IMG/VR virus record: IMGVR_UViG_3300022920_000002 | Span: 36,898-100,897 of that record | Length of the DNA: 64,000 nt | From: a virus | Strand: one strand, 5' to 3' | In this document: positions 1 to 58,824 of the stretch, piece after piece | How the letters are laid out: the number at the start of each line of letters is the position of its first letter | Numbering within the stretch: the stretch's first letter is position 1 | The notes under the pieces: generated by a model | Told to the model about the DNA's origin: nothing | What the model saw: only the letters and a program-made list of their open reading frames with translations | The model's database searches: none | Position numbers and translations under genes: made by a program

Positions 1-755
1 CACATCTCGTGATACATTTTAACCTCATCAGTATCTGATAGACTATAAGTATCTCTTAGTTTATTTATCGCCTTTTCGTAATAGCCTACTCTATCATCAA
101 AGTTAATGTCTTTTCCTAACTTTAAAATTTGAGGGGGAATTATTGTAAACGTCTTTTGAACATCTGACTTTAATTCTTTAAGAGCTTTAACTAGTTCTGT
201 AGCAATATTTTGTTTTCCAGTTTGATTACCTTCACCATCAGTCTCTACAATACCATGAAATTGTATAACATCTCTGTCATAATAGATAACATTAGGGTTT
301 TTAGAGTAAATTAGTTCCATGTTAACGAAATTTAATCCGTTCGCGAACATTGATTGGTCCTTAAGCGCTGGGAGCGCCGCTGCTAGATCTTTAGCAGCAA
401 AGATATATGTTTCTTCAACCAGCTGTGAGGCATGACCAGTGAACATCGTAATGATGCCTGCTAGATCAAGTGGATTTATCATTTGCCCCTTATTTCTGGC
501 AAACATTGCTTGACCATCTTTTACAGTTGCAAATAGGTTTTGACCATCAGTCTTTTCAGTTGCAGCCTCTTCGAAATCTAGTCCACCCTGTAATGAAGAT
601 TTAACAATAGTCTTGAAATCTGCAAAAGTTAATGAGTGGTCATCGAAGGGGTGCATCATGTGTCCTGCTGCTCCACCTTCAAATACGAAAGAGTCCAAGT
701 TGTTCACTTGGATTTTCTCGTTTAAAAATTCTGTAAAATTAGTGTATATCTTCAT
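1..755 (-). CDS. Partial protein with KxDG nucleotidyltransferase-like motif and capsid-leader-like N-terminus
   Basis: The gene is cut by the window edge; about 251 codons from the ATG at 755 are visible. Residues 68-71 read KTDG inside EKTDGQNLF, followed by ATVKDGQAMFARNKG. This resembles motif I (KxDG) of the covalent nucleotidyltransferases, the RNA/DNA ligases and capping enzymes, where the lysine takes AMP or GMP; the later motifs lie outside or are not recognised. The N-terminus MKIYTNFTEFLNEK resembles the T4 capsid-targeting leader, with LNE as a possible prohead-protease site. It lies downstream of the 477-aa gene with a 20-nt gap. The ligase idea is an inference from one motif; it may be an unrelated structural protein. 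Confidence 0.55.
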   Translation of the reverse strand, partial: MKIYTNFTEFLNEKIQVNNLDSFVFEGGAAGHMMHPFDDHSLTFADFKTIVKSSLQGGLDFEEAATEKTDGQNLFATVKDGQAMFARNKGQMINPLDLAGIITMFTGHASQLVEETYIFAAKDLAAALPALKDQSMFANGLNFVNMELIYSKNPNVIYYDRDVIQFHGIVETDGEGNQTGKQNIATELVKALKELKSDVQKTFTIIPPQILKLGKDINFDDRVGYYEKAINKLRDTYSLSDTDEVKMYHEM

Positions 756-775: not shown

Positions 776-2209
776 TTATCCTAATGATGCTGTTAATGCA
801 CCGACAGCAGCTCCGTAATCGTCACCGTGCTTAGACAATAATCCGTCTACAACTTCTTGTGCTTTTTCTTCGTCAAATTTATCACCGAAAGCTTTTCCTA
901 AAACTGAGAAGGCATACTCTTTAAAATCTTCATCAGACTTTACTTCTGCTTCGTTAGTAGCTTCAGTTTCAGTTTCTTCAGTTGTAGCTTCAGTTTCAGT
1001 TTCTTCAGTTGTAGCTTCAGTTTCAGTTTCTTCAGCACCTTCTTCTACAACTTCTTCTTCTTTAATAACTGGAAAGTTCTTACCATTAAATTCAAATTCT
1101 GCAGCATCTTCTTCAATTGCTTTAGCTCTTGCTGCTAAAAATGCATTGCCTTCGTTCATTACTGACTCGTTAGCCCATATTAATTCAAATGCATCTACTA
1201 TTTTTTGTGCTTGTTGAGAATAACCAAATCCATCTAAGAATAAAGCCATACCTTCAACAATACCGATACCAGACCATCCTGCAGCGTTAGCTAATCCAGA
1301 ATAATGATTATCTAATAAACTCATGATTGATTTTTTACCAACTGGAACTTCTAAACCACCTAGGTTATCGATCTTTACTGAAACAGTAGTAATCTTACCA
1401 CCAAGTGCTTTACTTACTGGATCTTTATATGAATGGAAGTTAGCGTCTGTTAAAGATTCTGATAATAAATATCTACAAACTCCTAATAAGAGCTGACCGT
1501 CCATTAATGCAGTGTGATTCGTAAAGAATGATTCTAACCATTTAGATACTTTCTTAGCATCTCTTAAATTACCCTTAGAAGGTTTAAATGATTCATTGAT
1601 TATCATAGATTCAAATGCTGGGACTAAATCGTAACTATCATAAACATCAACCATGTACCATTTCTTATCTGTTTCAGAATATAGGTAGATAAATTCAGCT
1701 CCACCGTTATTAGCAGCGTCTTTTACAAACTTCTCAGTATCTTTCATATCTCCGTCAGTAGTGGTCTTGTCGCCGTAGAATTTAATATCGTCTACATTTG
1801 CTTCTAGACCTGAACCACCCCCTTTCTTCAGTAGAGTGTCTACTGCCTTTCCATCTTTGTAACCCTTTTTAATTGTAGGTAACATGTGGTCTGGGTAACC
1901 ATCATAGTGCATATACACTGTTGAGATTTTTCCGTTCTTTTTGATTTTACCGATTTGTGATCTTGTACCCTCTTCAATGATCGCTATTGATTCTGATATT
2001 TCAGAACTACCTAACTTTTGATAGAATGTATGTCTGTCTTCTTCTTTAAGTTCTTTAATAGAAGTTACTCCGAACTCTCCAAGTAGATTTTTAAACTGAT
2101 CTGCAGCTACATTTCTTGCAGCTGATTGTTCTTCTTCTAATTTAGCGTTAGCTAGCTTTTTAGCACCATGTGCAAAATCTTCAAAAGATTGTAATTTTAA
2201 TGATCCCAT
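776..2209 (-). CDS. Unknown 477-aa phage protein with Thr/Glu repeat linker
   Basis: I do not recognise a characterised family. The N-terminal 60 residues are charged and probably helical. Residues around 95-115 contain a compact motif (YMHYDGYPDHMLPTI). The middle looks like an ordinary alpha/beta domain. A low-complexity linker of three nine-residue repeats (TEATTEETE type) near 390-415 precedes a short C-terminal helical domain rich in Ala and Gly. It is the last complete gene of the block after uvsW, and a GATATATAATA element overlaps the uvsW stop about 33 bp upstream of this ATG, so it may have its own late promoter. A structural or internal virion role is possible but unproven. Confidence 0.7.
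   Translation of the reverse strand: MGSLKLQSFEDFAHGAKKLANAKLEEEQSAARNVAADQFKNLLGEFGVTSIKELKEEDRHTFYQKLGSSEISESIAIIEEGTRSQIGKIKKNGKISTVYMHYDGYPDHMLPTIKKGYKDGKAVDTLLKKGGGSGLEANVDDIKFYGDKTTTDGDMKDTEKFVKDAANNGGAEFIYLYSETDKKWYMVDVYDSYDLVPAFESMIINESFKPSKGNLRDAKKVSKWLESFFTNHTALMDGQLLLGVCRYLLSESLTDANFHSYKDPVSKALGGKITTVSVKIDNLGGLEVPVGKKSIMSLLDNHYSGLANAAGWSGIGIVEGMALFLDGFGYSQQAQKIVDAFELIWANESVMNEGNAFLAARAKAIEEDAAEFEFNGKNFPVIKEEEVVEEGAEETETEATTEETETEATTEETETEATNEAEVKSDEDFKEYAFSVLGKAFGDKFDEEKAQEVVDGLLSKHGDDYGAAVGALTASLG
957..1035 (-). repeat. Three tandem 27-bp coding repeats (Thr/Glu linker)
   Basis: Three near-identical 27-bp units (each containing cttcagtttcagtttcttca) encode the nine-residue TEATTEETE-type linker of the 477-aa protein. 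The unit length is a multiple of three, so copy-number change keeps the frame. This is a low-complexity coding repeat, not a CRISPR or an origin iteron. Confidence 0.85.
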
Positions 2210-5468: not shown

Positions 5469-6369
5469 GGAAAGAATCTAAATCATCATCTGTAGTTACC
5501 TTATTCTCTGTTGTTGAAGCTTCAGCTTTCGTTGGAGCTGCACTACCTGCTGTTGCAGTTACTGCTGCCTTTGGTGCTGGAGCTGCTTTTGGTGTGCCAG
5601 TTACTGCTGCAATGTCGTCACCTGGATTAAGATACATTCTTAACACATTGTTTACGAAAGCTCTTGTGTCTTCGTCCCACGCTTTGTAGTCATATTGTGC
5701 TAATGATGGTGCATTTTCTAATTCCTCTTTGATAGAAGCCATAGTCTCTTTGTTTCTTTCTGCTGGAGCTTCGCCCATTAAGATAGCAGATTTATTAGAA
5801 GAGAATTTAGATTTATCGTAGTTGTTATATTCACCTTGTCTTGTAATTACAAGCTCGAAGTTCTTACCTTCGAATAGGTCGAATACTTGTGTTGGCTCGC
5901 CAAAGTCTGGCTTCAACTCAGAATCAATCTTTTCTTTAATCTTATATCCAAACTTAAATACTTTGTAAGTACCTTCCATTTCTGGATTTTGTGGATCTTT
6001 AATAATCTTGATTAAAGAATAATACTGTTGACGTCTCTTCAATTTCTCAGAAGATTTTCTGTCTACAGCAGAATCTGATTTTCTCAACTTCCAGAATACA
6101 TCTGCAATAGGGCAGTGTTCTCCAATAGTTTGAGGTGAGTCTACTAGTTTACCATCTCCAGAAGAGTTAGTTAACCAGTGTACGTATTTTTGAACCAAAG
6201 ATTTTCTTGGGTTCTCTGGATTAGGTACAAAACGAATTAATGCTTTGTAAGTTCCGTCCTTGCCGTCGTCGGCAGTTGGTTTGTAAACTTCGTTTGTTGA
6301 AGTTCTTTCAGGCTGGTGTGTTTCCACATCTTCCACGCCTAAATTAAAAATGTCGAATGAGTCGCTCAT
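5449..6369 (-). CDS. 32: Single-stranded DNA-binding protein, gp32-like
   Basis: Binds and protects ssDNA at forks and recombination sites. Length 306 aa against 301 in T4. Conserved core segments include KYVHWLT, CPIADVFWKLRK, KLKRRQQYYSLIKI, FKFGYKIKEKI and FDLFEGKNFELVITRQG. An Ala/Pro/Thr linker (about 255-290) leads to the acidic tail DDDLDSFLDELNI, the typical protein-recruiting C-terminus. Only one Cys (in EHCPIAD) is seen, so the His-Cys3 zinc site of T4 gp32 is not intact. It heads the gp32-gp61-uvsY-uvsW operon. Confidence 0.93.
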   Translation of the reverse strand: MSDSFDIFNLGVEDVETHQPERTSTNEVYKPTADDGKDGTYKALIRFVPNPENPRKSLVQKYVHWLTNSSGDGKLVDSPQTIGEHCPIADVFWKLRKSDSAVDRKSSEKLKRRQQYYSLIKIIKDPQNPEMEGTYKVFKFGYKIKEKIDSELKPDFGEPTQVFDLFEGKNFELVITRQGEYNNYDKSKFSSNKSAILMGEAPAERNKETMASIKEELENAPSLAQYDYKAWDEDTRAFVNNVLRMYLNPGDDIAAVTGTPKAAPAPKAAVTATAGSAAPTKAEASTTENKVTTDDDLDSFLDELNI

Positions 6370-6455
6370 AATTTTCTTTTAGTTGTTTAATTGTTTAATA
6401 ATGAAATACTTTAATTGTCTTTCAGTTCCTTATAGTTGTACAATATACAATAGTT

Positions 6456-6626
6456 TCAATTAAATGTTAAGATTGCTCCAGATGGCTCCTTCCATTCCCC
6501 GTCCTTTAGCTTAATCAGCCCTGATTTGTGTAGTAACTCTGATGCTTCCTTTTCAGTAAGCTGGTTCGCTGCCACCATTTTTTGTAGGATCGTATTGAGG
6601 CGAAGGTAATCTATAGTAATCAACAT
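6456..6626 (-). CDS. Small unknown protein
   Basis: The open frame extends to an ATG at 6674 (72 aa), but I prefer the internal ATG at 6626 (MLITIDYLRL, 56 aa): an exact GATATATAATA element covers 6654-6664, inside the longer reading, and would place the transcript start just before 6626. The protein is helical with a small charged C-terminal part ending in SGAILTFN. It lies upstream of gp32 with an 86-nt AT-rich gap. No family recognised. Confidence 0.5.
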   Translation of the reverse strand: MLITIDYLRLNTILQKMVAANQLTEKEASELLHKSGLIKLKDGEWKEPSGAILTFN

Positions 6627-6653
6627 ATCAATTAATACTTTGTTTATTATACT

Positions 6654-6664
6654 TATTATATATC
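6654..6664 (-). promoter_or_regulatory. Candidate late promoter element GATATATAATA
   Basis: Exact minus-strand copy of the 11-mer, 27 bp upstream of the 6626 ATG; it would drive the small gene and then gp32 and the recombination block. Function inferred from recurrence. Confidence 0.45.
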
Positions 6665-6708
6665 TGAATTTCATTTTGTTTCTAGATTATATGTTAATAA
6701 CTTTGTTT

Positions 6709-6774
6709 CAAAATAGTTGCCGAAATATTTTTTTATGTCAGATATTTTTCGTATATTAGTACTGTAATTAAAAA
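6709..6774 (+). promoter_or_regulatory. Conserved early-type promoter box, copy A
   Basis: One of four copies of a 65-bp element: CAAAATA-n-TTGCC, then seven T, ATGTCA, a short T-rich spacer, TTCGTATATTAGTACTG and TAATTAAAA. TATATTAG fits the Bacteroidetes -7 consensus TAnnTTTG at all but one fixed position. It ends 9 bp before the ATG of the plus-strand gene at 6784. Confidence 0.75.
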
Positions 6775-6783
6775 CTAATAAAC

Positions 6784-7116
6784 ATGAGTAATCCACACTA
6801 CGAACACCAATTAAAATTAGACGCTATGAAGAAACATACTAAATTATCGTCGAGAAACAAAACCCTTCTTTTGATGGGGGCTAAGGCTACTGGAAGCTTT
6901 CTAGAAGGTTATTATTATATAGAGGAAAGTTTATACATCGATGAGGCTAACTCGCTCCATTCGTTCTGTACATGGATTGATGACATCATCGGTGGCGCAG
7001 GTCCAGTTAATATTGATATGTTATGGCTAGGGTTTAAATACCCTGAAGTAGACAGATACTCTAGAGCATGTGTAGATATTAAGAAACAAATGGATGAAAT
7101 TAAAGCTTACTGTTAA
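6784..7116 (+). CDS. Unknown 110-aa protein, isolated plus-strand gene
   Basis: One of only two genes on the plus strand. It is supported by the conserved promoter box just upstream and by ordinary protein composition. The sequence is soluble and mixed alpha/beta, with an N-terminal basic helix (KHTKLSSRNKTLLLMG), an acidic centre (YYYIEESLYIDEAN) and a C-terminal helix. No motif recognised. An early host-takeover role would fit its own promoter and monocistronic layout, but nothing in the sequence proves it. It converges with the RuvC-like gene. Confidence 0.7.
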   Translation: MSNPHYEHQLKLDAMKKHTKLSSRNKTLLLMGAKATGSFLEGYYYIEESLYIDEANSLHSFCTWIDDIIGGAGPVNIDMLWLGFKYPEVDRYSRACVDIKKQMDEIKAYC

Positions 7117-7302
7117 CCAGAATATGGCTTTTCTTAGTTAATTAAAAAAAGATTGTAGATTTGTTGAACCTTTTTGAAACCTTTTCTGGGAACTAGCATA
7201 TAAGTAATGTCTTTAAGCCAAAGCCAGATAAGGTTCTGGAAGTAAGCTTTAAGTCTGTAAGCAGAGACAAGTATCAGTTAAGGGCTTGAAGCAGAGACTT
7301 GG
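7117..7302. other. Convergent intergenic stretch with small repeats
   Basis: 186 bp between two convergent genes. It contains an AT-rich imperfect palindrome near 7130-7153 (CTTTTCTTA / TTAAAAAAAG) that could serve as a weak terminator, a 10-bp direct repeat AAGCAGAGAC at 7259-7268 and 7289-7298, and a small hairpin CCAGA-TCTGG near 7224-7239. No ORF, tRNA fold or strong terminator seen. Confidence 0.4.
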
Positions 7303-8004
7303 TTAGTTTGGCAAATTTTCCCCAAGTTGTGTGTACAGATAATGATTAAGAAACCAAGCGTCGACTAGATCATCAAAAGGCTTCGGCACTTTTTTAACCT
7401 CATCACCTATATCATTTACACAATACTTAAATAAAGAAGTCTTAGCTAACTCTGGACTCTCTACTATATTATTTAAGAAAGCAACCCAAAGAGCTAACTT
7501 ATTCATATTCCCTTTACCAGCATGTTTCTTAATTGTAGTAGGTGCAACGGTCAGTAAATTTTTGACCTCGAGTCTATTAATCATTTGTTCTTTAAGGATT
7601 GCAGCTCCTGCTGCCATGTCAATCATATTATTAGTTCCCATCTTAGAACCGTATGACGTACCTTCGAATGCTATATGATAATCTTCTTCTGTGTTTGTTA
7701 TGCCTAATATTAGATTAATTATATCGTCCGCAGTTTGGATATATCTTTTAATCTTTGCAAATTCGTTTTTAGAGTAATCACCTACTGAAGATTTCCAGTC
7801 AGGTTGGTGTACAAGAGTTACATCCGAGAACGTACTTATTTCTTCTTGTCTTTTTTGTTCAGCTTTTGTTCCTGAACCAGCTTTAATATAGGAGATAAAG
7901 TGATATTCATTCGTATCAGACTGCCAGACACAGATACCAGGGGAATTAAGCGAGAAGTCAACTGTAACTAAATTCAAATTAGATTCTTTTACCCATCGCA
8001 GCAC
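7303..8004 (-). CDS. RuvC-like Holliday-junction resolvase candidate
   Basis: An RNase H-fold nuclease expected to cut four-way junctions before packaging. Residue D16 lies in the first strand (VTVDFSLNSPGICV), E114 in HIAFEGTSYGS, and D211/D212 with D215 in FDDLVDAWFL; this D...E...DxxD arrangement is that of RuvC. The stretch APTTIKKHAGKGNMNK matches the basic helix before the last motif in RuvC-type resolvases. T4 itself uses the unrelated endonuclease VII (gp49), so this would be a functional replacement. The start overlaps the upstream 125-aa gene by 26 nt; no other Met is available. The family-level assignment is inferred from motifs. Confidence 0.7.
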   Translation of the reverse strand: MLRWVKESNLNLVTVDFSLNSPGICVWQSDTNEYHFISYIKAGSGTKAEQKRQEEISTFSDVTLVHQPDWKSSVGDYSKNEFAKIKRYIQTADDIINLILGITNTEEDYHIAFEGTSYGSKMGTNNMIDMAAGAAILKEQMINRLEVKNLLTVAPTTIKKHAGKGNMNKLALWVAFLNNIVESPELAKTSLFKYCVNDIGDEVKKVPKPFDDLVDAWFLNHYLYTQLGENLPN

Positions 8005-8356
8005 CTAAAGCAGCACCGACTAATCTGGAGGTTAATAAATCGTAAAAGATACCTTTTTGAATACCTAGTACTTTACAAATAACTTTACCAACTGATTTAC
8101 CTAAAGCAAATCCAGCTAAACCACCAAAGATAGAACCTAAAAGACCTTCATTCATAAAAGCTTCTTCTAATTTGTCTAATTCAAATGTACCATCTTCTTT
8201 TTGGTATTGTTGTACAAATTGCTCTAATGCAAAATCTACTTTATCTTCTAAGTCTTGCGACCATTCTTGTTGAAGCCCTTCTTGTAAAAGTTTCATATCA
8301 GTGTCAGTTAGCTTTTGCTCAACTAAGTACTGGTTAAATGTTTTAGTATCTTTCAT
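7979..8356 (-). CDS. Small glycine-zipper-like protein, possible internal virion protein
   Basis: 125 aa. The N-terminus MKDTKTFNQYLVEQKL resembles the capsid-targeting leader (LVE could be a prohead-protease site). The middle is acidic and helical. The C-terminal half is Gly/Ala-rich and hydrophobic (GLLGSIFGGLAGFALGKSVGK and LVGAALGAAMG), like glycine-zipper membrane-inserting segments. It could be a packaged or tail protein that contacts the membrane, or a holin-like protein; neither is proven. A GATATATAAA-type element lies 3 bp upstream of the start. Confidence 0.6.
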   Translation of the reverse strand: MKDTKTFNQYLVEQKLTDTDMKLLQEGLQQEWSQDLEDKVDFALEQFVQQYQKEDGTFELDKLEEAFMNEGLLGSIFGGLAGFALGKSVGKVICKVLGIQKGIFYDLLTSRLVGAALGAAMGKRI

Positions 8357-8358
8357 AG

Positions 8359-8368
8359 TTTATATATC
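8359..8368 (-). promoter_or_regulatory. GATATATAAA, variant of the late element
   Basis: Variant of the recurring element, only 3 bp from the ATG at 8356. This close spacing would give an almost leaderless transcript, so it may instead act as an A/T-rich start region. Confidence 0.25.
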
Positions 8369-8371
8369 TTG

Positions 8372-8923
8372 TTAATCTATTTCTAATCTCAGGTCTAATT
8401 TATTATAGACAAATGTACATTCAAATGTAGCAAAGTCTGCTACGTTCTCAGCCATATTAAGATTTAATTCATTTATTGAATTCATAATGATTCCAGTAAA
8501 TTCCATATATGCTACTGAAGCTCCTTCGGCATCTAATATTCTTAGAGTCATAGGATCTATATAAGCCTTTTTAGTAGACTTAGCATAATAATATAAAAGA
8601 GTGTCCATCATTATCCAATAGTTAATAAAACCATCTAATAATTGAAAGGTCACTGTAAATTCTCTTGTAATAGTATTTTGAATTGGCACTGAACCTCTAT
8701 GATTTCTTATTGTACCATCATTATCTGATTGGGTAATTGGATCAAATGCTACACCCGGAATATTAAGACCTTGTATAGAATAATTTACAAAATCAATAGG
8801 TTCTGCTAAAAGTCCACCTGGAACTCTGTTTAAATACTTCTTGTATTTTTCAGAAACTTCCTTTGGTATAAACAATCTAGGGAACCTAAAGTCGTATGCG
8901 TTATTTCTGCTATTTAATATCAT
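8372..8923 (-). CDS. Possible tail-tube-fold virion protein
   Basis: 183 aa. Features compatible with the tail-tube/baseplate-tube fold are an N-terminal FPRLFIP segment, GLNIPGVAFDPI, an internal beta hairpin (REFTVTFQLLDG) and a C-terminal long strand (VADFATFECTFVYNKLDL) after a loop NSINELNLNMAENV; T4 gp19 ends in a comparable way. Similarity is by pattern only. It shares a TAATG stop/start overlap with the 690-aa gene upstream, so the two are coupled and probably work in the same part of the tail. Confidence 0.45.
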   Translation of the reverse strand: MILNSRNNAYDFRFPRLFIPKEVSEKYKKYLNRVPGGLLAEPIDFVNYSIQGLNIPGVAFDPITQSDNDGTIRNHRGSVPIQNTITREFTVTFQLLDGFINYWIMMDTLLYYYAKSTKKAYIDPMTLRILDAEGASVAYMEFTGIIMNSINELNLNMAENVADFATFECTFVYNKLDLRLEID

Positions 8924-52092: not shown

Positions 52093-52722
52093 TTAAAACT
52101 CAAATGGGATATAATCATCATCTTTATCCATACCGTACCAGACACCTTTGTTTTGCCAGTAGATCCATCCATACTTATCGTCGATAACTACTTCAAACTT
52201 ACCCTTTGGCATCTCCACGCTCTTCTTAGGAGCCCTGGCGATATGCTTAAGTACAGGTACACCATCTTCCCATGTTTTCTTAGTAGATCTAGCATCAACT
52301 ATTGCGCCATCACCAAATCCATGGTGAAATTCAGCACCTTCGATCTCATCAGCTAATAACATAGTCGGAGTTTTATCTGATTCATTAACTACTGATTCGT
52401 TTTCAGGCATTACTCTTTTATACTTAGCTTGTAATTCTTTAAATTCATCTTTAAGGTTAGAAGAGATTTTCTTCTTAATACCCCAGTTATCTCCAAAGAT
52501 TAGTGGAGCTACAGCGCCCATACCAGCAGTCTTAACTTGCTTCTCGTATTTTCTAGCATAAGTAGAGCTATCAAACCAGTCTAATGCAGCCTGAGCCATA
52601 TCCTTAGATATCTTAACACCTTCTATTTCAGAAGTACTACCTTTAACTACCATTTTAAATAGAGTTTTAGCAGGAGCTTGTCTTGCCTCATTTAATTCGT
52701 TTATTGACTTGATATATTTCAT
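52093..52722 (-). CDS. Leader-tagged internal-head-protein candidate (209 aa)
   Basis: 209 aa. The N-terminus MKYIKSINELNEARQAP resembles the T4 capsid-targeting sequence (MKTYQEFIAEA); LNE|A would be a cut site for the prohead protease. The body is soluble, with a basic middle and a C-terminal segment containing KFEVVIDDKYGWIYWQNKGVWYGM. Another SVVNES motif occurs near residue 112. No enzyme motif recognised. It is the last gene of the cassette before the terminator. Predicted role: protein packaged in the head and injected with DNA. Confidence 0.6.
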   Translation of the reverse strand: MKYIKSINELNEARQAPAKTLFKMVVKGSTSEIEGVKISKDMAQAALDWFDSSTYARKYEKQVKTAGMGAVAPLIFGDNWGIKKKISSNLKDEFKELQAKYKRVMPENESVVNESDKTPTMLLADEIEGAEFHHGFGDGAIVDARSTKKTWEDGVPVLKHIARAPKKSVEMPKGKFEVVIDDKYGWIYWQNKGVWYGMDKDDDYIPFEF

Positions 52723-52729
52723 AATTATA

Positions 52730-53407
52730 TTATTCTTTTCCAGCTCCCCAAGCTTCTTTTAATTCTTCAATCTTTTTAGAATAAGATTCTTTCATCTCAT
52801 TACAGATTGCTTCATACATTTCTTGAGTCATATCTTCATCTTTAACTTCACCATAACCTTCTTCCATTGCAGTTGCAGCAAGAGTAGCTACAAGTGCAGC
52901 ATTTTCTTTCATATACATTTCTAAAGTATGATCTTGGTATTCATCTTTTTCATAAGCACATGCAGCTTCAGAAACTTTACCATAACCTTCTGATAACATT
53001 TCTTCTACTGTAGCAGATGTTTCAGCAGGAGCAGCAGGCTCTTCAGCTTCTACTTCTTCAGCTTCTTCAGAATCATCTTCATCATCTTCATCATCAGAAT
53101 CATCTTCGTCATCAGAATCATCTTCATCATCGTCATCATCAGAATCTTCAGCAGCAGGCTCTTCAGCTTCTACTTCATCAGAATCTTCATCTTCTACTTC
53201 ATCAGAATCTTCATCTTCTACTTCATCAGAATCTTCATCTTCTATTTGTTCGTCAGGTAATTCAGACGTTTCTTCGCATTCTATGCAGTTACCCTCTTCG
53301 TCGGTACCACATGGACACTCTTCGTTCTCTTCTTCAGAGATTTCATTTTTAGCATCTGCTTTTATAGTTTCAGAATACTCTTGAAATGATAATATTTTTT
53401 TAGCCAT
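52730..53407 (-). CDS. Highly acidic repeat protein with Cys4 motif
   Basis: 225 aa with an extraordinary acidic centre (three EDEDSDEV units, then long Asp/Glu/Ser runs) and an N-terminal Cys4 pair C31-x-C33 and C41-x2-C44 (CPCGTDEEGNCIEC) that could bind zinc. The C-terminus is helical and mixed. The N-terminus MAKKILSFQEYSE is related to the leaders of the neighbours. Acidic core proteins balance the charge of DNA or scaffold prohead assembly (T4 gp67/gp68 play such roles), which I infer. It lies between two candidate internal proteins and the S74 protein. Confidence 0.6.
   Translation of the reverse strand: MAKKILSFQEYSETIKADAKNEISEEENEECPCGTDEEGNCIECEETSELPDEQIEDEDSDEVEDEDSDEVEDEDSDEVEAEEPAAEDSDDDDDEDDSDDEDDSDDEDDEDDSEEAEEVEAEEPAAPAETSATVEEMLSEGYGKVSEAACAYEKDEYQDHTLEMYMKENAALVATLAATAMEEGYGEVKDEDMTQEMYEAICNEMKESYSKKIEELKEAWGAGKE
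53168..53239 (-). repeat. Three tandem 24-bp coding repeats (EDEDSDEV)
   Basis: Three identical 24-bp units encode the EDEDSDEV repeats of the acidic protein, flanked by two copies of a similar EVEAEEPAA-coding block. In frame, so expansion or loss keeps the protein intact. Confidence 0.9.
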
Positions 53408-53432
53408 GTTATATGTTTTTATATTTATTATT

Positions 53433-54140
53433 TTAATGTGTTATTGTATGAAAAGGTACATCGATCTTACTGTAGTCTACTAGAATACCTTCTTCAGTAT
53501 GTCTTAATACATCTTCAAATCCTAGCCTCTGTAAATCATCTACCATTGTACCGATAAATGTTCCCTTACCATTTGTTTCGTCTTTATAGTTGAAGTGGTA
53601 CATTGGAATTCCCATTGCAGATGCCCCTACTAATTTTATATTATCTTTTAAATGTCTTTCAGATTTACCTTCATACTGTAATTGTGTTCCCTCTTGCTGT
53701 ACATCCACATTATGAGAATCTCCATCTTGTAGGGAATGAACAATATTACCAGTGTATGCAATATTTGCATATCTCCATGCCGTATTAGTACCGCCATTAC
53801 TTGTTACTGTAAAGACAAAATTACCAGTACGAGATACTGTATCTACTGTCCATGTAGTTGGGTTTATAGACATCCATGACGGCATATTTATATCAGATTC
53901 TTGTGGAGTCTGTCCACCGCCGTCTCCTCCCCATTCAAAATATGCACTGTAGTTACTACCTCCGGCAATTAAGAATTCATGGTCTAAAGTACTAACATTA
54001 TCAACAGGACTACCTGCAAAATTTATCCAATTAAACCAACTGTCTGCCATCGCGTTTCCAGGATATTGATAGTTAAGTATTGTTTTAGTTAACCCATCAG
54101 GGCTAACCGCTATTAAGTATTTTATATTTGGATTTGACAT
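53433..54140 (-). CDS. Fibre/adhesin protein with C-terminal S74 chaperone domain
   Basis: 235 aa. The C-terminal 77 residues match the intramolecular chaperone peptidase S74 domain: S160ERHLK165DNI, GIPMYHFNYKDETNGKG, FIGTMVDDLQRLG, GILVDYSKIDVPF. The Ser/Lys dyad is the self-cleavage site that frees the chaperone after the trimer folds; here Glu replaces the usual Asp after the serine, which may alter the cut. The N-terminal 150 residues form a beta-rich, Gly/Asn-rich domain (YFEWGGDGGGQTP). It is likely a tail spike or fibre tip. Follows the BACON-like protein by 14 nt. Confidence 0.75.
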   Translation of the reverse strand: MSNPNIKYLIAVSPDGLTKTILNYQYPGNAMADSWFNWINFAGSPVDNVSTLDHEFLIAGGSNYSAYFEWGGDGGGQTPQESDINMPSWMSINPTTWTVDTVSRTGNFVFTVTSNGGTNTAWRYANIAYTGNIVHSLQDGDSHNVDVQQEGTQLQYEGKSERHLKDNIKLVGASAMGIPMYHFNYKDETNGKGTFIGTMVDDLQRLGFEDVLRHTEEGILVDYSKIDVPFHTITH

Positions 54141-54154
54141 CTTGTTATTTATTA

Positions 54155-55492
54155 TTAATTTCCACTTCCATCAGTCCATTCTATAGAACCGTCTCCAGCA
54201 ATAATACCGTTATTAGCATCAGTATCATTCCATGCAGTAGACGTTACAATTCCGGTAATTGGATTGTCATTAAGTTGTTGTGTATCATTAGTTGCACCCA
54301 TTGAATCATTTGACCAGTAAAAAGTTCCCGGTACGTCAACTGCAATTAATTCTAGTGTTAAAGAATCCGCCGGACTATTTAAGCCTTGTACTAATATGCT
54401 TTGTTGTGGACCTACCATACCAACGCCAGCATTATTCCAACTATATCTTTTAACATTTCCGGAACTAGTTGGGCTTCCTAGTAAAATAGAATTATTTACA
54501 TCGTTATATCCAAATTCAAGACCGCCAGAAACTGAATCATCACTAATCACAAAGTTTACAGACGATAACAGTGTATTATTACTATCACTATCTGTTGCAT
54601 CAAAATTAATTACGAAAGTTTCAGGCCCTTCTGTTAAACCATCCGATGATACTTGAATCATTAAACTCGCAGTATTGTTTGTAAATACAAACGGAGATGG
54701 GCTTACTTGTGTATCATCATTACCCCAATATGAAGAATTAGATCTTACAAAATCACCAAAATCAATAAAGCCACCGTTATGTGTAATCGTGGAACCTATT
54801 GATGTACCATCAGAGACTGGATTACTAGCATTAATAGTTATAGTAACAAAAGAATTTCCATCGTTTGTTTCACTAGGGTTTCCATCATTAGCTGGCCCTC
54901 CTGTTAATACTACGCTATACAAAGGACCTCCCTGAAATTGCTGAACTACCAACGTTTCCGGTCCTAAAGTTGTACCAACTCCAGTTCCCTCGGAATTAAC
55001 AGCATACGCTGTATAATAATAATCGCCAGTCGCGCTGACTGTATGGGATAAAGTATAACTTCCTAAAGAAGTTCCACCTGCAGCTACTTGTGCGTTTTGA
55101 GTATAATCTGAATTTGTTCCTATATAGAAACCTCTTTGTGTAATAGCGTTACCATTAATAGAATCAATACTCCCGTTTAAGTCAAGATCATTATTTACAA
55201 CATTTGTCGCCTGGATTGTTGTAACAGATGGAGATGAATTACCTAAACCAGATTGAGTAACTGTAAAAGATTCTACAGTAATATTATCGGAATGAGTAAC
55301 TGTACATGTTGCAGTTCTTTCAGCACCAGGGTTATCTGCAACTAAAAAATCCCAAGTATCAGTGTCAACACCGTTACTATCTTGAGCATTTGAAATAGTT
55401 ATCCAATCAGCATTAGAATCACCAGATTTACTCCATGAATATGAATCATCTACTGGGAATACTGTGATTGTTTTTTGATGTGTATATGGCAT
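54155..55492 (-). CDS. BACON-like, beta-sandwich host-binding protein
   Basis: 445 aa. Residues about 1-85 fit the BACON domain (ADWITISNAQDSNG, FLVADNPGAERTATCTVTHSD, ESFTVTQSG), a Bacteroidetes-associated carbohydrate- or mucin-binding domain also found in crAss-like phage tails. It is followed by FN3-like domain with the NSEGTG segment and a Calx-beta-like domain (TEGPETFVINFDATD, SSVNFVISDDS). No signal peptide. A GATATATAAA element lies 19 bp upstream. Together with the S74 protein it probably forms a receptor-binding unit. Confidence 0.65.
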   Translation of the reverse strand: MPYTHQKTITVFPVDDSYSWSKSGDSNADWITISNAQDSNGVDTDTWDFLVADNPGAERTATCTVTHSDNITVESFTVTQSGLGNSSPSVTTIQATNVVNNDLDLNGSIDSINGNAITQRGFYIGTNSDYTQNAQVAAGGTSLGSYTLSHTVSATGDYYYTAYAVNSEGTGVGTTLGPETLVVQQFQGGPLYSVVLTGGPANDGNPSETNDGNSFVTITINASNPVSDGTSIGSTITHNGGFIDFGDFVRSNSSYWGNDDTQVSPSPFVFTNNTASLMIQVSSDGLTEGPETFVINFDATDSDSNNTLLSSVNFVISDDSVSGGLEFGYNDVNNSILLGSPTSSGNVKRYSWNNAGVGMVGPQQSILVQGLNSPADSLTLELIAVDVPGTFYWSNDSMGATNDTQQLNDNPITGIVTSTAWNDTDANNGIIAGDGSIEWTDGSGN

Positions 55493-55511
55493 CTCTTACT
55501 TTCTTTGTTTT

Positions 55512-55521
55512 TTTATATATC
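55512..55521 (-). promoter_or_regulatory. GATATATAAA, variant of the late element
   Basis: Minus-strand variant of the recurring element, 19 bp upstream of the BACON-like gene. Confidence 0.35.
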
Positions 55522-55535
55522 TTCCTAATATAGTA

Positions 55536-57587
55536 TTACAGGGTTTCAATTGCATTATCTTTCATCCACTTCTCTAGTTTCTCAACAGCAATATTAAATA
55601 TTTTACTTCTGTTAATAGACATTCCAAATGAATTAAAGTATTCTTTCATCATATAGTATGCTGGTTCTATCTCTTCTTTATTAGCAATTCGATCTTGGAT
55701 ATGTTTACTAACCTCATACGCAGCTTCAGCACCTACAAACACAAAAGCAGTATAACCTGTTAAGTCGTTCCAATGTAGATCTGATAATTTGTAACCTATT
55801 TCACCTAGTTCTTTTTTTCTTGCAGCTGTATCGAATTTACGATCTCCCATTTGGTTTAACCAAAAAGACATGTAGTTAGATTCTTTACCATACATCTTTT
55901 CTACAAATCCTCCAGCAACAAGTTCTTTTATTTTAACTCCAATATACTTAGGGTATTTAATCTTTCCATACTGCTTAATAAATCTATCGTATTCGTAGTT
56001 ACCGAAATATTCATTAAGGGTTTTAACAAATCCACTTTTAACAACTACTGTCTCATTTGCTTTTCTCATATCAATCCAAACTCTAATAATATCTGCATAG
56101 TCTTTAGAAGTTAAGCCCTCTTTTTCACCATGTGTAGTTTCACTATTACGATCCCACATTTTTTGAGCAAAAGCATCGATGTTACCTTCTTTAAAAGTCA
56201 TAACAGCTCTTTGAGTACCATTATCTAATAATTGAAATGTTTCTTCTTTTTCATCATGTGGATCTAATCTCCAACCAGCTGAATTATTAACTCTAATATC
56301 TAAACCACTAGAGTTACTATCAACCACAACAGTCCAAGGACCTTCTGATTGATATGTTTTACCTTTTTTATATTTGATTTTACCTTCATTAACTGATTCT
56401 TTAAGACCTAATGCTTTATTAACTAGATCTTCAATCACACTAGAGTAATCATCCTTTAAAGCCCATTTAATTGTTTGGCCTTCACTTCTTGCTTTCTTGT
56501 TTATCCATTTAAGGTGTGTTGCATCAGTAAGAAAATCAGAAGCTTCTTTTGCAATTCCTTTTGGATCTATTTTCCATTCATCAATTGTAGTACCAAAGTT
56601 ATTACCGTATGTAGAACCATTAGTTCTTTTAAGGTTATTGATTCCACCAATCTTAATGTATATGTCATTATTAATAGGCATTGCTTCAAAGAAAACTACA
56701 TCTCTTTCTTCTGGGTTGTTTTCACCAGATACTTGATCGATAGCATAAGTACTATGAACTCTCCATGTAGGTTCGCCTTTTACATTGTACGCTGCTGAGT
56801 GTGTATCTGCACCGAATTCAGAAGCCTTTAACTTATATGCTTTAGCTTCGTTAACTGATTCAGTAAATCCTCTTTCTTTAGCATCATTCTTTACCCATTC
56901 TCTATCTTTAGATGAAAGCTTTTTAAAATCTTTATCAAATTTATGATGTGCAATTAATTCATAAACATCTTCTAATTCTACTGACTCGCTAAATAGAGTT
57001 TCTCCAGTATTAGACTCAACACTTATTACAGCATTAGGATATTGTTTTTGTAATTCATTAAATACGGCAGGAACCGCAGCTGGTGTATCAACTAATTCTT
57101 GTTTAACAACCATACCACTATTAATTACTACAATACTTACAGGATAACTTCCTTTCTTTGCAGCTTTATGGATTGCGCCTCTTTTAGCTTCACCTATTGG
57201 TTTAATGTACTTCATTTGGTTTGACTCTTTCATAGCGTCTATTTCTTTTGATTTTTCAATTGCCCAATCAACACCTTCATCTCCACCCCAGATTAACCAG
57301 GCTACGTAGCCTCTGTCTTTCCATGGAGTTGCTTTTAATTCAGGTTTGATTGATGAGTTTTTTCTGTGTCTATTGAATGCGGACATTCTTTTAACTGTAT
57401 CTGTACTAAGGTTTTCACCTTTAGCCAGTTGATGAGCTCTTGCCCAACCTACTGGAGTTCCAGCATCAACTTCGTCTCTACCATGTTCCTCTTTCCAGTC
57501 AATTGCCTTTTGAGCATTCTTCTTTGCAGCAGCAGGATAGTCATTCCAAGTATCTTCTTCGTTTAATACAGATTCTATGTACTTCAT
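55536..57587 (-). CDS. Modular leader-tagged protein (683 aa) with internal leader copies
   Basis: 683 aa. The N-terminus MKYIESVLNEED holds a capsid-leader-like sequence. Residues 16-118 form a domain common in phage virion or head-maturation proteins (DWKEEHGRDEVDAGTPVGWARAHQLAKGE, RGYVAWLIWGGDEGVDWAIEKSKEID). A second leader, MKYIKPIGEAKRG, sits at 125-137, and ESVNEA (243-248) and ESVNEG (397-402) recur at later module boundaries. The remainder holds several soluble domains (one with HHKFDKDFKKLSSKDREWVKND). This suggests a fused set of internal proteins that the prohead protease may separate. No catalytic motif found. Confidence 0.6.
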   Translation of the reverse strand: MKYIESVLNEEDTWNDYPAAAKKNAQKAIDWKEEHGRDEVDAGTPVGWARAHQLAKGENLSTDTVKRMSAFNRHRKNSSIKPELKATPWKDRGYVAWLIWGGDEGVDWAIEKSKEIDAMKESNQMKYIKPIGEAKRGAIHKAAKKGSYPVSIVVINSGMVVKQELVDTPAAVPAVFNELQKQYPNAVISVESNTGETLFSESVELEDVYELIAHHKFDKDFKKLSSKDREWVKNDAKERGFTESVNEAKAYKLKASEFGADTHSAAYNVKGEPTWRVHSTYAIDQVSGENNPEERDVVFFEAMPINNDIYIKIGGINNLKRTNGSTYGNNFGTTIDEWKIDPKGIAKEASDFLTDATHLKWINKKARSEGQTIKWALKDDYSSVIEDLVNKALGLKESVNEGKIKYKKGKTYQSEGPWTVVVDSNSSGLDIRVNNSAGWRLDPHDEKEETFQLLDNGTQRAVMTFKEGNIDAFAQKMWDRNSETTHGEKEGLTSKDYADIIRVWIDMRKANETVVVKSGFVKTLNEYFGNYEYDRFIKQYGKIKYPKYIGVKIKELVAGGFVEKMYGKESNYMSFWLNQMGDRKFDTAARKKELGEIGYKLSDLHWNDLTGYTAFVFVGAEAAYEVSKHIQDRIANKEEIEPAYYMMKEYFNSFGMSINRSKIFNIAVEKLEKWMKDNAIETL

Positions 57588-57590
57588 AGG

Positions 57591-57905
57591 TTATTTATCG
57601 CCCTCTTCTTTTTTAGTTTCTTTAGCACTTCTAATCTGAGCTTTCTTAACTTCTACATTCTTCTTAATTGATTGCTTTTGAGCTTCAGCCTGCGCAAGTT
57701 GTACTTTCATCTTAGCAAGAGTACTTGACATTTTATCAGTAACTTTAGGCGATTGAGATAACTCTTTAGCCTTATTAGTTTCTTTCTCAATTTTGTCGTA
57801 CTGTTTAGTAATAACCTTGTTAATCTTTTTAACCTTCTTTTTAATGTTAGGTTTATTCTTACGATTTTCACTAGTAAAATCTTCAAGTAATTTTATATGC
57901 TTCAT
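57591..57905 (-). CDS. Leader-tagged Lys-rich small protein (104 aa)
   Basis: 104 aa. Starts MKHIKLLEDFTSENRKN, with LLE as a possible cut site. The rest is extremely Lys-rich and helical (KKKVKKINKVITKQYDKIEKE, KNVEVKKAQIRSAKETKKE), like T4 internal proteins that bind DNA in the head. The start overlaps the 80-aa gene by one base (TAATG). Predicted internal virion protein; no other family. Confidence 0.6.
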   Translation of the reverse strand: MKHIKLLEDFTSENRKNKPNIKKKVKKINKVITKQYDKIEKETNKAKELSQSPKVTDKMSSTLAKMKVQLAQAEAQKQSIKKNVEVKKAQIRSAKETKKEEGDK

Positions 57906-58147
57906 TAGAGTTGAGTTCTTTTGATTTTATTGATCTTAAGATCTACTCTTAACATCTCCATCTTTAAATCTTCTTTTTGTAAACTAAGATTTAATAATTC
58001 ATTTTTAACAGGATCCTTTTCATCTCCAAGCTTATCAGTAAGATCCTTCATTTTATCATGAGTATCTTTAATCTTACCTTGAAGATCTCTAATCTTAGTA
58101 TTATACTCAGCCTTGGTAGATTCGTATAGTGGTTTTATATGCTTCAT
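57905..58147 (-). CDS. Leader-tagged small helical protein (80 aa)
   Basis: 80 aa. Starts MKHIKPLYESTKAEYN (LYE as possible cut site). The rest is a coiled coil of alternating charges (KIRDLQGKIKDTHDKMKDLTDKL, LRVDLKINKIKRTQL). It overlaps the zincin gene stop by 4 nt and the 104-aa start by 1 nt, giving a tightly coupled three-gene set. Possibly a dimerising internal protein. Confidence 0.6.
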   Translation of the reverse strand: MKHIKPLYESTKAEYNTKIRDLQGKIKDTHDKMKDLTDKLGDEKDPVKNELLNLSLQKEDLKMEMLRVDLKINKIKRTQL

Positions 58148-58824
58148 AGTCTAAATCCTAAATGTTTTGCACGAGCTTCCCATTTAACTAGGACTTCTGC
58201 TCTTTCTTTACTATTTATCTCCCCCATCTCTTCTTTTGAGTCTAGGTATCTATTTACAGCATCAATAGTCTTCTCACCTCTCTTCTTAGCCTCAAATCTT
58301 AAGCCTTGTAGATTTGCATCAACTTCTTTAGGTAGGAGTAAATAATGCATCTTTGGTAACATGCCATTATTAATTAAAGCTCTCATCATATCATCTGGTT
58401 CATTAGGTTTACCCTTTCTATAATTACCAATGTCAATACCATCTTGAGTAATATGTTCAATCTCATGTCTTAAGACATCTGCTAAAACAAAGTAAATCTC
58501 TTCCCAATAAGTAGGTAACCAATCTGGATTACAAGCAAAATCTATATTAATAAATGGATCTTGCCAATCACCTTCATCATCTTCATCTCTGCCATCAGCT
58601 CCAGTTGAATTTAGGACTTCAAATCCCTTGCCTTTAAAATAAATTGAACAGTTTAGGTCAAATGTAAGACCTGGGTTCTGTACTTCAAATGAGTAACTAG
58701 AAGATTTTTTGCCGTTCTCAAAATCTAATACCCACTGTTTAAAACAATCACCTAATAATTTATTAGAGATAGAATCTAGTTTTGTATATCTTTCAAATAT
58801 AGCCTTTGATTTAATATGCTTCAT
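58144..58824 (-). CDS. Leader-tagged HExxH metallopeptidase candidate
   Basis: 226 aa. H120-E121-x2-H124 in VLADVLRHEIEHITQDG is the zinc-binding motif of zincin proteases, and E167 in LPKEVDAN is a possible third ligand or catalytic companion. The N-terminus MKHIKSKAIFERYT resembles the capsid leader (IFE cut site), so the enzyme would be packaged and delivered. The surroundings (residues 85-115) contain an acidic loop and an aromatic helix. Possible targets are host proteins, cell wall or a virion partner. It follows GATATATAATA by 1 bp, starts the cassette and lies below a terminator. Protease activity is inferred from the motif. Confidence 0.6.
   Translation of the reverse strand: MKHIKSKAIFERYTKLDSISNKLLGDCFKQWVLDFENGKKSSSYSFEVQNPGLTFDLNCSIYFKGKGFEVLNSTGADGRDEDDEGDWQDPFINIDFACNPDWLPTYWEEIYFVLADVLRHEIEHITQDGIDIGNYRKGKPNEPDDMMRALINNGMLPKMHYLLLPKEVDANLQGLRFEAKKRGEKTIDAVNRYLDSKEEMGEINSKERAEVLVKWEARAKHLGFRL

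Follow-up and report, generated by a model that had tools for sequence, protein, structure and literature searches.

A shared leader on candidate head-cargo proteins and apparent polyproteins in a virus record with T4-type head genes

The proteins that uncultured huge phages inject cannot be recognised by their bodies, which match nothing. Whether they can be recognised by their N-termini is the question raised by a gene cassette at positions 52093-58824 of a 64,000-nucleotide stretch of virus DNA (the window), which is C1:36898-100897 of the 100,897-base IMG/VR record IMGVR_UViG_3300022920_000002 (C1, not a closed genome). The original prediction held that five proteins starting with MKYIKS, MKYIES, MKHIKL, MKHIKP and MKHIKS, each followed by an (L/I)xE motif, carry a leader like that of the T4 internal proteins and form a set of head-packaged effectors injected with the DNA. 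All five starts and motifs are present at the positions given. We consider it likely that these are head-cargo or core proteins of a T4-like huge phage, with leader docking, a cut by a prohead protease of the S77/gp21 type and cargo polyproteins fused in frame. A rule combining leader and cut site would list such proteins from sequence, and genes now 'unknown' would become candidates for anti-defence or takeover functions.

Results

The genes that carry the leader are the following, where the arrow marks the predicted cut, aa stands for amino acids and L-numbers label DNA stretches that include flanks and relatives' loci (L002, L003 and L004 overlap C1).

52093..52722, minus strand: 209-aa protein of two modules; leader MKYIKSINELNE↓ARQ and internal site ENESVVNE114↓SDK
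55536..57587, minus strand: 683-aa apparent polyprotein of five modules; leader MKYIESVLNE and four internal predicted sites
57591..57905, minus strand: 104-aa Lys-rich protein; leader MKHIKLLEDFTSE
57905..58147, minus strand: 80-aa coiled-coil-like protein; leader MKHIKPLYE↓S
58144..58824, minus strand: 226-aa zincin-like protein (HEIEH); leader MKHIKSKAIFE↓RY
C1:31356-31925: sixth leader gene, beyond the window; leader MKHVKLFEAFVASQKLNE
1..755, minus strand: 5' part of a 423-aa protein with a ligase-like KxDG motif (EKTDGQN); leader MKIYTNFTEFLNE↓K, whole gene L004:1381-2652
7979..8356, minus strand: 125-aa glycine-zipper-like protein; leader MKDTKTFNQYLVE↓Q, a weaker case

The looser leaders noted earlier at 755 and 8356 are real, and the former heads the 423-aa gene once this is completed from flanking DNA. 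In the T4 sequences compared, ipII and ipIII begin MKTYQEFIAE↓A, which bears out the leader that the original prediction gave for T4 internal proteins. Six of the record's 99 open reading frames have both an MK[YHF][ILV] start and [LI]xE within residues 5-16. Shuffling of the N-termini gives 0.04 ± 0.20 (at most 2 in any of 5000 shuffles) and internal windows give 0.11, and [LI]xE alone shows only a mild excess near the N-terminus (23 versus 13). On the strength of leader shuffling and of the breakpoint test described below, we reject chance as the explanation. Codons of the shared residues vary synonymously (TAT/TAC, CAT/CAC, ATA/ATT/ATC, AAA/AAG), and hence the peptide, not the DNA, is what is conserved.

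The leader is also conserved among relatives, in seven syntenic IMG/VR contigs and others, on bodies that differ: the zincin, the 209-aa family, Lys-rich proteins, a GNAT protein (L011:4239-4694) and others without any match. Aligned on the cut, leaders read MKHLQLFEEFINE↓G, MKHIKAYESFINE↓G, MKYINTYDSFLNE↓A and MKIYTNFTEFLNE↓K, with a consensus of about MK(Y/H)IKxFExF(L/I/V)NE↓(A/G). The predicted P1 Glu of the zincin (E11) is invariant in 10/10 homologues, whether free-standing or fused; the protein is free here (MKHIKSKAIFE↓RY), fused elsewhere (ESEVFE↓RY) and free again, behind a different leader, in L010/L011 (ESFINE↓GRS / ESFIGE↓GRS). A relative of the 80-aa protein starts MRHIKPMYE↓S, and MRHLKQFKNFINE↓G is similar. 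Relatives of the 104-aa protein start MKHIKIFEDFLNE↓K, MKHIKLFEDFIIE↓K and MKHIKIFNDFVSE↓N; the LLE first proposed for this protein is present, but the column homologous to DFLNE/DFIIE/DFVSE of the relatives reads FTSE, and LLE may not be its cut site. In L008, the counterpart of the 209-aa protein has a leader three residues shorter (MKYIKPLNE↓ARQ) and retains the site. The leader system reaches a distant huge phage, LR756500 (462 kb), in which one stretch (L097:9957-16431) holds four leader-like starts, MKFILEYEKFLNK, MKFLKSYEEFLNE, MEFVKTYLEFINE and MEYVKLFEEFVND, with MKFLKSYEEFLNE↓N heading a homologue of the 423-aa ligase-like protein.

A gp21-like protease, expected in the rest of the genome, was found outside the window.

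C1:1813-3993 (L002:1813-3993), minus strand: prohead protease and long acidic scaffold-like region in one 726-aa gene (Peptidase_S77, 1.6e-12; PHROG 207 head maturation protease, 1.4e-35)

It is 29% identical to T4 gp21 over 110 aa (6e-12) and retains the His and Ser motifs, GEL(D/N)HP and SSR. In T4, genes 21 and 22 are separate, whereas here the protease is fused to the scaffold, and this scaffold part carries similar sites (HLAE, YLAE, ESLTE↓A). Profile searches identify a capsid protein (PF07068, 9e-46) and a portal (PF07230, 3e-72) of T4 type, and the order portal, 113-aa gene, protease-scaffold, capsid protein corresponds to T4 gp20-67-68-21-22-23 and is kept in about 25 relatives. The 113-aa core gene, in the gp67/68 slot, begins MKIYKTFEEFITE↓DA, and about 25 relatives read approximately MKI(I/F)KTFEEF(I/V)xE. 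The capsid protein begins MANLINE↓AEVRNTWSPIISEATGINE↓SAKLAWMSEYCHNHKLYE↓DA, with three (L/I)xE sites (LINE↓A, GINE↓S, LYE↓D) that recur in close relatives, and LR756500 has a similar N-terminus. Core proteins in the gp67/68 position and the capsid protein are gp21 substrates in T4. Judged by their sequences, both here bear sites of the cassette type. A T4-type capsid targeting sequence (CTS) combines a short N-terminal leader common to unrelated bodies, an (L/I)-x-E cut motif ending it and a gp21/S77 prohead protease, and the record holds all three, with the 104-aa protein an exception at the homologous column.

The source appears to be a large T4-like marine phage. In annotated collections, the capsid proteins closest to its own are those of huge phages, namely LR756500 (47.7%), Lak phages and other 0.6-0.7-Mb genomes, so that the record probably covers only part of a larger genome. 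A search for terminase (PF03237) across the record found none, which agrees with an incomplete record, and a nucleotide search of the region against known phages gave no match.

The body that the original prediction called modular is indeed so; what had been overlooked is that the 683-aa protein appears to be a polyprotein whose joints carry sites like that of the leader. Its predicted P1 codons are as follows, all on the minus strand.

57558..57560: Glu10 (ESVLNE↓EDTW); same junction type internal in L005, L007, L008, L009, L010, L020 and L021
57189..57191: Glu133 (ESNQMKYIKPIGE↓AKRG); internal leader copy including Met, in the low-confidence linker 121-137 between confident domains
56847..56849: Glu247 (FTESVNE↓AKAY); same junction in L005
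56385..56387: Glu401 (LKESVNE↓GKIK); other junctions precede the same module in L007 and L011
56010..56012: Glu526 (FVKTLNE↓YFGN); N525-E526 invariant in 10 sequences, confident fold from 529

Counterparts in relatives span 466-1247 aa, and their joints are of the types ESVLNE↓E, ESVNE↓A, ESVVTE↓G and ESLVNE↓G or are full leader copies (ESNQMKYIKPIGE↓A, ESKQLKYIKPLNE↓A, TKTLKYIKPLNE↓S, NTRFKHLKSLNE↓Y). Joints as in the 683-aa protein also occur in a 718-aa gene (C1:31947-34103) and in the 209-aa gene. Unit families, whose labels come from single-linkage clustering with some units over-merged, recur beside different neighbours and even in different genes, and the L010 polyprotein holds two units of the 718-aa protein. 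The NE before the C-terminal unit is invariant in ten sequences with unrelated upstream units, and the unit stands free in L011 with MKYIKLFESFVND. In the breakpoint test, 147 of 261 local-alignment ends lie ≤8 residues from [LIV]xE against 65.4 ± 8.7 expected, a z of 9.4 that overstates significance, as the alignments come from related, non-independent proteins and BLAST may extend through shared joints. Exchanging the E for any of fifteen other residues gives z from -2.9 to 3.7, a control that speaks to the specificity of the test and not to independence. As in viral polyproteins, several independent domains thus share one frame with predicted sites at their boundaries, and the 683-aa gene looks like a polyprotein of exchangeable modules, as do its relatives, which reach 1247 aa, and the 718-aa and 209-aa genes. 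Retention of the Glu or NE in fused and free units would follow if the cut site of the leader is preserved on fusion, presumably since the site still works.

An AlphaFold2 model of the 683-aa protein has a mean pLDDT (predicted local distance difference test score) of 57 and is confident roughly at 15-120, 138-200 and 529-683; its low-confidence stretches, 1-14, 121-137 and 376-528, hold the first, second and last predicted sites. In the middle, a thin alignment leaves the model uninformative. In the zincin model (pLDDT 71), leader residues 1-14 are disordered.

The first unit (residues 11-120 of window:55536-57587) is a domain of ~100 aa without a match in Pfam. In haloarchaeal, marine and uncultured phages, it is fused to or annotated in genes for prohead protease, portal, capsid and XkdF-type proteins. 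Foldseek matches of the 683-aa model among viral models are mostly phage head proteins, including prohead proteases, a portal and XkdF-type proteins, and tblastn with the first unit matches the HGTV-1 prohead protease gene and records annotated as portal or major capsid protein. Since both sets of matches fall in head proteins, the unit is head-associated elsewhere too, and as a general head-associated domain it would deserve a name.

Discussion

We propose that the leader, like the T4 CTS, would dock the precursor in the prohead core, and that the S77/gp21-type prohead protease would cut after Glu and free the mature body, which would stay inside the head while the core is digested and DNA enters. 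Where cargo units are fused in frame, the joints keep a leader copy or cut site (ES(V/L)xNE↓(A/G), KYIKPLNE↓A), and each chain may yield about 2-10 small proteins through the same protease. The units have been shuffled among polyproteins and between fused and free forms, and some, such as the zincin, the GNAT protein of a relative and the ligase-like protein, are probably delivered into the host with the DNA. The stronger claim, that this is a polyprotein system of a prokaryotic virus for head cargo, with exchangeable modules on leader-derived prohead-protease sites cut in the prohead, several delivered proteins per gene, and leader plus site as a portable unit for adding, dropping and reshuffling cargo, is one that we favour by a narrow balance of the evidence. 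Of the effector set proposed originally, head targeting and gp21-type processing are well supported by sequence, but the leader also stands on the core gene in the gp67/68 position. It therefore marks entry into the prohead core and not effector function, which does not follow from it.

Several observations weigh against the proposal. The P3 residue of the junctions is mostly Val, whereas T4 has Leu or Ile, and [LIV]xE is common enough in proteins that single sites are no proof. The 104-aa protein has no [LIV] at the homologous site column, the free-standing C-terminal unit of L011 reads FVND and not NE, confidence in the model of the 683-aa polyprotein is confined to its two ends and the second module, and the record is a metagenome fragment.

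The main rivals are a scaffold function and the packaging of intact multidomain proteins. Leader proteins that are core or scaffold parts (gp67/gp68/gp22-like), shape the head and are then degraded and lost would never be delivered to the host. This account fits the fact that, beyond the cassette, the leader is clearest on the core gene that lies between portal and protease; it also fits the similar sites in the scaffold part of the protease fusion and the 225-aa protein of the cassette, which is extremely acidic, as core proteins are. We nevertheless hold it to be unlikely, given that the cassette bodies look enzymatic or globular (the conserved HEIEH zincin, the GNAT domain, the KxDG ligase-like protein), that gene content turns over quickly among relatives, unlike that of an essential scaffold, and that the sites lie between modules and are not spread through them.

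Alternatively, the large genes could encode multidomain head proteins of the ordinary 'polyvalent' sort, which would remain in one piece, with the ES(V/L)xNE and KYIK repeats as uncut linkers docking to the core. Such packaging has a precedent in the N4 virion RNA polymerase, which is packaged intact (PMC5512222); targeting by the T4 CTS is separable from processing, and Asp at position 10 still targets (PMC9026906). The L011 unit ends FVND. However, the Glu is invariant while docking residues vary, junction and leader sites have the P1 Glu and N-rich P2 of the capsid-protein sites, and a homologous Glu-specific protease is present, which makes intact packaging quite improbable. As for a DNA or translation feature (an AAA-rich start) or a recombination scar without peptide function, MK starts are frequent in phage genes and the cassette genes overlap or abut, but the synonymous codon variation, the KYIKPLNE copies in mid-polyprotein, where translation does not start, and conservation that reaches the downstream Glu already disfavour this idea, leaving it barely credible.

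We propose that the cassette is a variant of the T4 internal-protein system. In T4, the first 10 residues of IPIII target the head, with residues 4 and 7 serving targeting and 8 and 10 processing, gp21 cuts at L/I-x-E, and the CTS brings foreign proteins into heads and cells (PMC9026906; PMC3012670). As in IPI-IPIII and Alt, a short leader of matching shape (FI-x-E↓A in T4, FINE↓G here) is all that unrelated bodies have in common, the protease is homologous and the order of portal, core gene, protease and capsid protein is the same. Unlike in T4, the leader is usually 2-4 residues longer and starts MK(Y/H)IK, leader genes are many more, and cargo units are fused into apparent polyproteins with internal sites, of which T4 internal proteins have none. 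Polyvalent proteins (Iyer et al. 2017, PMC5512222) are likewise multidomain, shuffled, lineage-specific and probably head-packaged, and their authors likened them to RNA-virus polyproteins and proposed embedded peptidases as releasing agents (PMC5512222). Here, in contrast, it is the prohead protease that fits the joints, and a recognised peptidase domain is absent from most polyproteins: Pfam, PHROGs and NCBIfam gave no match to an embedded one, and a zincin is one unit of the L009 polyprotein. The huge phages phiKZ and SPN3US (gp175/gp245) also have a gp21-like protease that cuts many head proteins, after (S/A)-x-E, and redundant propeptide sites, but SPN3US propeptides are mostly long, with one mature protein per gene and no string of modules. 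In the literature searched, we found no paper on phage polyproteins cut by a prohead protease or on such leaders outside T4, which is not proof of absence. If true, the cutting of a polyprotein by the protease of capsid maturation would be unusual among DNA phages and predicts new N-termini after NE, and the leader (for example, MKYIKSINELNEA or MKIYKTFEEFITEDA) could also be used to tag proteins that are to be loaded into such heads.

Additional observations

The cassette holds its leader genes as proposed but is not uninterrupted, given that two leader-less proteins (53433-55492, minus strand) break it up. These have BACON, Ig-like and S74-chaperone signatures, their counterparts in relatives differ strongly in size and number, and they are likely surface or fibre proteins. 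Two further genes in the window are of note.

52730..53407, minus strand: 225-aa very acidic protein; conserved start MAKKILSFQEY
776..2209, minus strand: 477-aa protein; junctions ESMIINE↓S and ESVMNE↓G, weaker leader

The start of the 225-aa protein, M(A/D)K(K/Q)ILSF(E/Q)EY, is kept in 12 sequences ahead of an acidic, variable remainder, and the protein is possibly a core or scaffold component. A relative of the 477-aa protein (L030) has ESVLTE↓G and ESVTNE↓A. Adjoining the 423-aa gene is a gene for a 619-aa protein (C1:34522-36381; L003:16522-18381, minus strand) that has a KIDG motif, as in ligases, and the nucleotidyltransferase signature GRFQPFTLGH.

Pfam and NCBIfam returned essentially nothing for the cassette proteins, and a DUF1978 match fell under its cut-off. 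Across zincin homologues, conservation is limited to HEIEH/HEMEH and a KEVDA further downstream. The zincin had no sequence match among known metallopeptidases in Pfam, NCBIfam or the PDB, and we claim no peptidase family for it, as its moderate model gave no PDB fold match. Searches of phages by tblastn with the 209-aa protein and with a 196-aa leader protein of L010 (L010:3350-3940; MKYINTYDSFLNE↓A) gave no match; the latter looks ADP-ribosyltransferase-like by eye, a likeness for which Pfam and the PDB gave no support. The leader protein at L011:4239-4694 has, besides its GNAT acetyltransferase domain, a zinc-ribbon-like CxxC segment and a possible ILGE↓Q site.

A cultured phage, Flavobacterium phage immuto, could be a practical system for testing the idea. 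Two of its genes, gp079 and gp088, lie at L012:12767-15292 and 5892-8615, respectively; the joints of gp079 read ESVNE↓G and ESLNE↓D, and in gp088 a second HExxH-like region and a NadR-like domain precede a zincin unit of 37% identity.

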